From: Emcibacter sp.
GTDB lineage: Bacteria > Pseudomonadota > Alphaproteobacteria > Sphingomonadales > Emcibacteraceae
Length of the DNA stretch: 64,000 bases
Assembly: GCA_021774785.1 (NCBI GenBank)
Contig: JAJFIQ010000026.1
Coordinates: 620,001-684,000, forward strand
Direction: 5' to 3'
In this document: in pieces, positions 21,838-24,360 of the stretch
Layout of the letters: each line of letters begins with the position of its first letter
Position numbering within the stretch: the first letter of the stretch is position 1
Notes under the pieces: generated by a model
What the model saw: the letters and a program-made list of their open reading frames with translations, nothing else
Database searches by the model: none
What the model was told of the DNA's origin: nothing
Translations under genes and position numbers: made by a program

Positions 21838-23238
21838 TCACTTCCTGAAATCTATTCCCGATTGGGCGGCGAAATAGCTGAAGATGGTATAAACGGCAGT
21901 ATTCTGCTTCAGGGCTTCAGCATCCACTTTGTCCAGCGTGTCGTTTTCCGTATGGTGATAGTCAAAATATGTCATGCCATCTGGGCTGAAATTCACCGCC
22001 GGCATACCGCGCTTGCCCAGCGCGCTCATATCCGATTGTCCCTTGGCATCATTCTTGGGGCTTAAAGACACCCCGAGTGGCGCCAGTAATTCCGCCAATT
22101 CCCGAATAGCGTTCAGGGCAGATGGCCCAACGCCGGGCTTCATTTCATAAATCCGACCAGTGCCGAAATCCCATTCTGCTCCGATCACATGATTTCCCAT
22201 GTCATGGCCGTGGGTTTTGACATATTGTTTGGCCCCCACAAGCCCCACTTCTTCCGCAGCGAACAGGATAACCCGGATTGTACGTTTCGGACGTTGCGGC
22301 AGATTTGCAATATAATGGGTGGCGGCCAGTGTGATAGAGACACCGATGCCGTCATCTACGGCCCCGGTACCTACGTCCCAGCTATCCAGATGGGCGCCCA
22401 TCACCACATATTCATCGGGACTCTCGCTACCGGTAATTTCGCCGATAACATTGGCTGTGGTGACCGGAACATCATCTTTTCGCTCTGCTGTCAGCTTCAG
22501 GAAAACCTTAACCGGATTGCCGCGCGCGATCTGCCGCGAGAGCAAATCCGCATCGGGGTTGGACAGGGCGGCACCAGGAATTTTTGCCGTGCCTTCTATA
22601 TATTGAAGGCCACCCGTATGGCCAATGCGATCATCATCGGTCCCAACGGACCGCATAATCAGGGCAATGGCTCCCTTGGCGGCGGCATAGCTGGGACCGG
22701 CGGCCCGGGTTTTCACCGCTGGCCCATATCCGGAACCGTCAATTTTCCGTTCCATGCGATATGATACATAAGCAATTTTTCCGTTTAGGCTATCCGGTTC
22801 TGCGGAAGAAAGTTCGGCAAAATTCTTAAATTCCACTACTTCGGCTGTGATGCCGTCCACGGGCGTAGCCACGCTGCCGCCAAGGGCGATGGCAACCATT
22901 CTTTGGGGGTAGGGGGCGATGATGCGGGCCTCTGCTGTGCCCCTGATCCATTGATGATGAATGACCTCTTCAGTCCATACCCTGTCAAAGCCCAGCTGTT
23001 TCATCTTGGCAACCGCCCATTTGACGGCTAGCTTGTCACCGGGGGTGCCCACCCTTCTTGGCCCAACCTCGGTGGTTAGCGATTCGTCAATGTCGTAGGC
23101 CAGATTAGATGAAAGTGCGGTATTTTTCAGAGCCAGAATTCGTTCCTTGTCCTGATCCGATAAGGAGTCGGCATTAGCGCAAAAAATCATCAAGACTGAA
23201 ATTATACTGGAAATAGTTATTTTTTTAAGATTGATCAT
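21838..23238 (-). CDS. M28 family exported metallopeptidase
   Basis: The 466-residue protein has a signal peptide (MINLKKITISSIISVLMIFCANA) and the M28 aminopeptidase/carboxypeptidase layout. A PA-like insert (about residues 110-235) is followed by the di-zinc domain with VVMGAHLDSWDVGTGAVDDGIGV, FAAEEVGLVGAKQY and the late HHTENDTLDKVD histidine. It resembles plasma glutamate carboxypeptidase and bacterial aminopeptidases that trim peptides in the periplasm. It is first in a two-gene operon with the GFA protein. A perfect 24-bp inverted repeat sits 26 bases upstream of its start codon. Confidence 0.92.
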   Translation of the reverse strand: MINLKKITISSIISVLMIFCANADSLSDQDKERILALKNTALSSNLAYDIDESLTTEVGPRRVGTPGDKLAVKWAVAKMKQLGFDRVWTEEVIHHQWIRGTAEARIIAPYPQRMVAIALGGSVATPVDGITAEVVEFKNFAELSSAEPDSLNGKIAYVSYRMERKIDGSGYGPAVKTRAAGPSYAAAKGAIALIMRSVGTDDDRIGHTGGLQYIEGTAKIPGAALSNPDADLLSRQIARGNPVKVFLKLTAERKDDVPVTTANVIGEITGSESPDEYVVMGAHLDSWDVGTGAVDDGIGVSITLAATHYIANLPQRPKRTIRVILFAAEEVGLVGAKQYVKTHGHDMGNHVIGAEWDFGTGRIYEMKPGVGPSALNAIRELAELLAPLGVSLSPKNDAKGQSDMSALGKRGMPAVNFSPDGMTYFDYHHTENDTLDKVDAEALKQNTAVYTIFSYFAAQSGIDFRK

Positions 23239-23263
23239 AAAATATTATCCCTTGTTATGGCTT

Positions 23264-23327
23264 TAGGCAACGTACTAATAAATTATGTGCGCGCAGAATT
23301 GTGCATAATTTATTAGTACGTTGCCTA
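23264..23327. repeat. Perfect 24-bp inverted repeat with 16-base spacer
   Basis: TAGGCAACGTACTAATAAAT plus TATG at 23264-23287 is repeated in exact reverse complement at 23304-23327, with a G+C-rich 16-base spacer. It lies in the 246-base divergent gap between the M28 peptidase and the CoA-lyase genes, 26 bases upstream of the M28 start codon. There is no T-tract, so it is not a typical terminator. It could be an operator, a long-stem mRNA leader, or a remnant of a palindromic mobile element. Confidence 0.85.
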
Positions 23328-23484
23328 GTTTTATCGGGTGAGAAAACTAAATCAACCTGTATTTCATATCTAAACATTATTGCAATGCAGCATCTTGTCA
23401 TGCGCGACTATAAAATATATAAGCATGTTATAAAAATGATGAGTATTGTGAAATAATATATCAATATTGGTAAGGATACACCCC

Positions 23485-24360
23485 ATGAGTAATCAGATCA
23501 GACCCCGCAGAAGCGTTTTATATATGCCCGGCTCTAACCCGCGCGCACTGGAAAAAGCAAAAGAGCTGGCGGCGGATTGCCTGATACTGGATCTTGAAGA
23601 TGCGGTGGCGGTCGCGGCAAAGCAGGATGCACGAACACTTGTGGCTGATGCGGTCAAGGCGGGTGGCTACGGTTCGCGGGAACTGATCATACGTATCAAT
23701 AGTATGGATAGCGAGTGGGCCGCAGATGATTTGAAAGCGGCCTGTGCGGCGGGGCCAGATGCGATCCTGCTGCCCAAGGTGGAAAATGCTGACATGGTGT
23801 TGCAGACCGAAAAAATGATGATAGAGTTTGGTGCCCCTGAAAAAACTAAAATCTGGTGTATGATGGAAACACCGCGTGCCATGCTAAATGCGGCAGAAAT
23901 TGCAGGCAGCTCGGATAATCTCACGTGTTTTGTTATGGGGACCAGTGATCTGGTCAAAGATCTTCATGCCCATCATACGATCATGCGACTGCCGGTGCTG
24001 ACCGCTTTGGGGTTATGTATGCTGGCGGCGCGGGCGGAAAATATTGAAATACTGGACGGGGTTTATCTGGACCTTGGTGATGAAGAGGGTTTCCGGGCAA
24101 GTTGTCTGCAAGGACTGGAATTTGGCTTTGATGGTAAAACCCTGATCCATCCAAAACAACTGGCCGGAGCTAATGAAACCTTTGCCCCGTCATCATCAGA
24201 GCTTGAATTTGCCCGGCGGATCATTGAGGCCTTCGGTGAGGCCGAAACCCAGGGCAAGGGTGTGGTGCTGTTGGACGGCAAGCTGATAGAAAATCTGCAT
24301 GTGGAAAATGCCCGGCGGCTTGTGGCATTATCCGAAGCTATTGGAGGGATGAATGACTAA
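23485..24360 (+). CDS. HpcH/HpaI (CitE-like) CoA ester lyase or malyl-CoA thioesterase
   Basis: This 291-residue TIM-barrel protein belongs to the CitE/malyl-CoA lyase family. It shows RRSVLYMPGSNPRALEKA, LDLEDAVA with metal-binding acids, LLPKVENADM, and FDGKTLIHPKQL near the end. The short length and partner gene suggest the Mcl2-type (3S)-malyl-CoA thioesterase of the ethylmalonyl-CoA pathway rather than the longer malyl/beta-methylmalyl-CoA lyase, but the reaction cannot be settled from sequence alone. ATG 23485 is preferred: AAGGA at 23472-23476 is eight bases upstream; a TTG at 23467 has none. The stop overlaps the next gene by eight bases. Confidence 0.85.
   Translation: MSNQIRPRRSVLYMPGSNPRALEKAKELAADCLILDLEDAVAVAAKQDARTLVADAVKAGGYGSRELIIRINSMDSEWAADDLKAACAAGPDAILLPKVENADMVLQTEKMMIEFGAPEKTKIWCMMETPRAMLNAAEIAGSSDNLTCFVMGTSDLVKDLHAHHTIMRLPVLTALGLCMLAARAENIEILDGVYLDLGDEEGFRASCLQGLEFGFDGKTLIHPKQLAGANETFAPSSSELEFARRIIEAFGEAETQGKGVVLLDGKLIENLHVENARRLVALSEAIGGMND

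Follow-up and report, generated by a model that had tools for sequence, protein, structure and literature searches.

The perfect 24-base inverted repeat at positions 23264–23327 of a 64,000-nucleotide stretch of an Emcibacter sp. contig (JAJFIQ010000026.1; the whole stretch is hereafter the window) is, with a probability that we put at roughly 85%, the miniature form of a non-autonomous palindromic foldback element inserted at a TA dinucleotide, similar to miniature inverted-repeat transposable elements (MITEs). Such an element would be of an ordinary kind, and the family to which it belongs is of interest. The two arms (23264–23287 and 23304–23327), located by an inverted-repeat search, are 24 nt each, complementary at 24 of 24 positions and separated by a 16-nt spacer; arm pairing and gene calls bear out the initial annotation, which had described exactly such a repeat in a divergent region; the minus-strand gene there encodes an M28 peptidase and the plus-strand gene a protein of the HpcH/HpaI aldolase/citrate-lyase family. 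With two mismatches allowed, pairing extends to 27 columns, 25 of them paired. No longer perfect arm occurs in the window at spacers of up to 40 nt, and 50 first-order Markov sequences as long as the window yielded arms of at most 15. Folded as RNA, the 84 bases from 23254 to 23337 gave z = -8.8, and the 64 bases of the palindrome folded as DNA gave z = -8.2, with 0 of 200 shuffles equally good in each case. The ends read TAGGC...GCCTA and the stem lacks a T-tract, as had also been remarked, the longest T run directly outside it being four, on the plus strand. We place the element on the minus strand over 23264–23327, a TA at each end included, and call it a short form of a family of elements of about 275 nt from a profile match and the alignment of a modelled deletion product.

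The palindrome is not a conserved promoter feature. A 321-bp query across its region found matches in 14 of 16 genomes of the genus, its own counted; blastn recovered both neighbours in 7 of the 13 others, and these were aligned with the window (the remaining 6 gave the downstream side only and stand outside the assessment). An intact palindrome was found at 0 of the 7 assessable orthologous sites, where it is missing, decayed or replaced. In genome G015 (genomes and loci carry our own labels) the site is empty, one TA standing where the window has the element and two TAs; joined, the window flanks align with it as ...GCTGTAGTTTTATC against ...GCTTTAGTTTTATC, G015 first. From this single TA the dinucleotides at 23264–23265 and 23326–23327 are read as the left and right copies of a target duplication. 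G003 holds a one-arm remnant, CACATAATTAATGAGTCTACGGCCTA, with its end, the remainder being gone; that end, TAGGCCGTAGACTCATTAA, is the same at 19 of 19 bases as an insertion-sequence end in G004. In G005, a 265-bp TA-flanked insertion (L019:482-746, G005:C7) lies in the same M28–HpcH/HpaI intergenic region, with terminal repeats of 33 bp (97%), two internal hairpins and a match to the class-level profile introduced below (E 4.4e-10); it sits at a different point, and one intergenic region thus harbours members of the wider family in two lineages of the genus. Several tandem units of about 20 bp (CTGGGTTAGAAAATTA...) are seen near the place of the palindrome in the orthologous region of G007 (L017, G007:C131).

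These sites bear on the reading of the repeat as an operator or leader hairpin dedicated to regulating the M28 peptidase gene or its divergent neighbour. Its place some 25 nt before the M28 start codon, its very stable fold and its perfect arms would suit such a role, but conservation fails at every assessable site, falls instead on a different block (23378–23425), and relatives of the repeat turn up at different loci in further genomes (few flanking genes were identified there), which makes this reading very improbable. Among the three readings offered by the initial annotation, the trace of a palindromic element is thus the one that held, on the seven orthologous sites, the relatives at other loci and the single TA of G015; a stable leader hairpin is possible, as a side effect, and gene-specific regulation found no support.

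Relatives of the mobile element occur elsewhere. A genome search for the arm, which had been proposed as a check, gave an ambiguous answer: the own genome yielded no further copy of the arm, yet a full-length cousin of about 266 nt lies outside the window near 436 kb of the contig, at about G000:C19:436003-436268 (L043:1483-1748). By the searches run, the own genome thus has one short and one full-length copy. The latter stands directly upstream of a frame that by eye resembles SecA. Related short copies were found at other loci in G012 (contig C47, 22 of 24 outer positions paired) and G004 (C20, 16/24), the two genomes in which 63-bp forms recur, and a hybrid copy in G003 (C167) pairs at 11 of 24. 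The full-length copy G012:C243 measures 275 nt, has ends TTAGGCAGCGTACTCATTAATTATG and its complement and carries two further internal inverted repeats; it was the only match in an end-pattern scan of the named genome contigs. Six more full-length copies come from G015, G013, G007 (two), G005 and the own genome, so that the genus alignment (A1) spans 266–276 nt. Terminal repeats of about 25 bp flanked by TA mark the long relatives: in 19 of the 23 copies measured, 22–25 of 26 positions pair, the other four measurements being unusable through ends set too far in or failed. With 3 mismatches allowed, the end pattern TAGGCNRCGTACTCATTAA did not outperform its reversed control in most genomes and served only to locate loci. 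Two end motifs were also seen apart from elements. The motif TAGGGTCAGGANC occurs in 13 of 16 genus genomes, mostly as single sites with no element, and its count was set aside as evidence; TAGGGTCAGGACC, the type-B element end motif, stands without the rest of the element at L073, L076, L081, L084 and L094 (G005, G006, G008 and G015), sites that look by eye like one shared site in four genomes.

The window copy is homologous to the end of these long elements, of which it comprises the terminal repeats and the first inner motif. Its minus strand from 23327 to 23268 matches positions 2–61 of an nhmmer profile built from the seven full-length genus elements, the window copy not being among them (E 5.8e-5, 23-sequence test set). 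When an internal deletion of G012:C243 was modelled by joining its left 38 and right 25 positions, the product agreed with the window in 55 of 64 columns (score 45), and the same operation on G015:C121 gave 53 of 64; 100 shuffled palindromes scored at most 12.5 against the window. CATAAT(T) stands at both ends of the lost middle and is a plausible point of deletion or recombination. The arm of the window differs from that of G012:C243 at three positions, all mirrored in the opposite arm. A variant of 203 bp without much of the second hairpin, L220 (G198:C15, 1430-1632, minus strand), was observed in the class-level set and is a deletion form of intermediate size. The alternative that the repeat joins the two ends of a full insertion sequence after loss of its whole middle, outside the family of about 275 nt, would account for terminal sequences that resemble IS5-family ends. 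Yet the spacer and inner arm (23280–23301, minus strand; G000:C19:643280-643301) retain, with 2 mismatches, the motif CCATTCTGCGCNNGCATAATTT that the long elements carry inside, and the 63-bp forms are recurrent; we regard this origin as very improbable too, if anything slightly more so than a regulatory one.

The long elements are structured throughout. The seven full-length copies fold end to end at -122 to -172 kcal/mol, and RNAalifold placed 116 pairs in an outer helix, formed by the terminal inverted repeat, and two internal hairpins, that is, a three-way junction in which 93.5% of alignment cells pair. Both sides have changed in 53 of the 116 pairs (shuffled mean 26.8, 0 of 500 shuffles as high; 10 to 14 pairs in slid structures), figures to be read with the structure having been derived from the same sequences, so that the slid control favours it, and with shuffles that ignore relatedness. 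Lettered cells comprise 714 Watson–Crick, 39 G-U and 52 unpaired, with 110 cells changed on both sides; such a scarcity of G-U intermediates would be explained by mirrored correction of the DNA no less well than by selection on an RNA. The longest stop-free stretches are 46–90 codons in the seven genus copies and 69–95 codons in 19 class-level copies, in most of which they span nearly the whole element. They may reflect G+C content or a small gene, although whole-length folding and mirrored changes speak against the latter; the window copy itself is too short for a gene.

A covariance model built on the first hairpin block (R1), whose matches are relatives of the long form, extended the search across the Alphaproteobacteria. 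Within the family it matched 8 of 32 genomes at E 0.01, six of which had supplied training copies and two (G009 and G022) had not; within the class it matched 9 of 289 at E 0.001, the own genome included. The class-level copies (n = 19) measure about 270 nt, end near TAGAGC...GCTCTA and, in an alignment of their own (A3), take up the same outer helix and two hairpins, with 74 pairs; 43 of these changed on both sides (shuffled mean 31.1, 0 of 500 as high; slid structures 16 to 23). This alignment holds 19 of the 28 class loci fetched (L204–L231), from six genomes, and omits L206, L207, L208, L214, L223 and L226 (short loci, some misplaced), L218 (bounds failed), L219 (an extra insert) and the 203-bp variant L220. 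The two levels recognise each other in part. The A3 profile matched 5 of 10 long genus or family copies at E up to 10 (L062, the best at E 4.2e-8, L168, L162, L154 and L028), with no match to the other five or to the window copy, and the genus profile A1 matched 2 of 5 class copies (L225, E 5.1e-6; L217, E 0.018). Used as a pattern for short forms, TAGAGC...GCTCTA gives no numerical support, because control matches exceeded forward ones in 7 of 7 class genomes; some of the matches in G371 contain AACAGAATTGATTC, which by eye resembles the end of the long element. Tentatively, and with some doubt, the palindrome could be the smallest member of an old alphaproteobacterial superfamily of three-way-junction elements of about 270 nt, in which loops would be conserved across families, stems rewritten on both sides, and ends (TAGGC, TAGGGTC, TAGAGC and TATACCAACG) swapped between types of insertion sequence.

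The ends of the palindrome and of the long elements resemble those of IS5-family insertion sequences in part, which points to a transposase of that family as a candidate partner acting in trans. A G004 frame whose last residues are RIWMRFNESTA* closes on TTTAATGAGTCTACGGCCTAA, and its 32 residues align with positions 234–258 of the 258 in NF033580, a model of IS5-family transposases (E 4.3e-5); for so short a piece this falls under the cut-off of the model. Relatives of this C-terminus occur in 19 of 147 genomes of the order, and several of the loci read show paired TAGG... ends; in several IS5-family loci the right end overlaps the stop codon of the transposase. Both N-terminal halves checked (G118 and G036) exceed the Pfam DUF4096 and NCBIfam IS5 cut-offs, and G005 has a broken DUF4096 gene after the other end type, TAGGGTCAGGACCTATTGAT. 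The own genome gave no match to PF13340 or to the G004 C-terminus, and the window copy is therefore probably a relic.

Some observations weigh against the interpretation as a mobile element or its details. The window arm TAGGCAACGTACTAATAA agrees with an IS5-family end TAGGCCGTAGACTCATAA at 12 of 18 positions by eye, a moderate likeness, and an intact insertion sequence with exactly these ends was not found, for which reasons the partnership stays a suggestion; the transposase search in the own genome used one domain model and one short peptide. By the searches run, only two copies are present there, which gives no indication of recent movement. The window copy, which is without most of the stem modelled in R1, is missed by that covariance model. 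A clean empty site with a single TA occurs in one ortholog, G015, the junction being less clean in others, and a target duplication of merely 2 bp is weak taken alone. Lastly, the remnant in G003 and the window copy may be separate insertions at one spot, since their arms differ.

Comparison with known systems leads back to MITEs. The window copy is short (64 bp, against 266–276 nt in its full-length relatives), has terminal inverted repeats pairing at 24 of 24 positions and a TA on both sides, 2 bp only, and dispersal over unrelated loci is seen in the relatives of the long form. Prokaryotic MITEs such as QMITE2 of Coxiella burnetii have terminal inverted repeats and a short target duplication, are intergenic, are predicted to form a stable stem-loop when transcribed, and presumably owe their mobility to a related insertion sequence (PMC10969869). 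The window copy resembles them in its repeats, short duplication, intergenic place and stable stem-loop fold; unlike them, it is only 64 bp and nearly all stem, and its long relatives have in common a three-way junction, with mirrored changes in the helices. The IS5 family shares the TAGG... ends and flanking TA, but our element has no transposase gene and its ends are only partly alike. The methyltransferase CcrM acts on GANTC. At least one GANTC was found in 14 of the 19 class-level elements, at 4.1 per kb against 2.3 in the flanks, and in this they are like the long CcrM-associated intergenic repeats (CIR) described in Caulobacter and other Alphaproteobacteria (Chen and Shapiro 2003, as reported in PMC10969869); the full-length elements may be those repeats, whereas the 64-bp window copy has 0 GANTC.

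Repetitive extragenic palindromes (REPs) are linked to a REP-associated tyrosine transposase, and a REP-type palindrome served by such an enzyme would likewise be short and intergenic. The TAGGC...GCCTA ends, however, leave the stem foot without a GTAG or CGTC tag, the long relatives have TA-flanked terminal repeats, and 64 bp exceeds the 20–40 bp given for the tagged palindromes (PMC3733652), which makes this origin hardly credible. Nor do the ends resemble the conserved inverse-core and core boxes of an integron attC site, for which no scan was made. Rfam matches in the window region and in 18 loci with long or partial elements stayed below the gathering score; the best, mir-722 (36.3 bits, gathering 81, E 6.7e-4) and mir-3173 (39.1 bits, gathering 84, E 6.2e-4), are animal or plant microRNA look-alikes under half that score and were rejected. 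In plasmids, the window palindrome had one chance match and the G012 long element and two class-level elements none; in phages, four 27-base chance matches to the G012 element fell within a single phage group, and one class-level element had none; and viral contigs gave 0 matches for two patterns. The elements are not named in the literature searched, a body that excludes most subscription journals.

The surroundings of the insertion are those of a divergent pair. Downstream of the element, the M28 peptidase gene (21838–23238, minus strand; PF04389, E 1.7e-33) has its start codon at 23238, and AAGGGAT, between element and start codon (23247–23253, minus strand), is likely its ribosome-binding site, judged from the sequence and the alignment of orthologs, most of which keep it. 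On the other side lies the HpcH/HpaI aldolase/citrate lyase family gene (23485–24360, plus strand; PF03328, E 4.8e-50). The block conserved between window and seven orthologs, 23378–23425 (TATTGCAATGCAGCATCTTG...ATAAAATATATAA), is probably real regulatory DNA and perhaps a regulator site of the HpcH/HpaI–MaoC genes, as far as conservation alone can indicate function; in G005 and G009 it contains an imperfect inverted repeat. The palindrome, in turn, would be a hairpin in what is probably the 5' leader of the M28 transcript, and if it influences expression there, it would do so incidentally.

Overall, we suggest that the element inserted at a TA, its ends being recognised in trans by a DDE transposase of the IS5 family, as their likeness to such insertion-sequence ends would imply, and that the middle was then lost between the two CATAAT(T) repeats near its ends. 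Arm symmetry may have been kept by template switching or conversion between the arms, because differences between copies are mirrored in both. The window copy would now be immobile, as no partner transposase was detected in its host, and carried as a passive hairpin in the probable M28 leader. The tempting notion of a giant operator is thereby dropped, and a testable history of TA insertion, internal deletion and arm-to-arm correction takes its place. The larger family is a natural record of the way in which long palindromes remain perfect in bacterial chromosomes and in which elements lacking a transposase of their own keep or change partners. If the superfamily proves true, its members would be structured parasites that persist by using the palindrome as its own repair template and by switching transposase partners.
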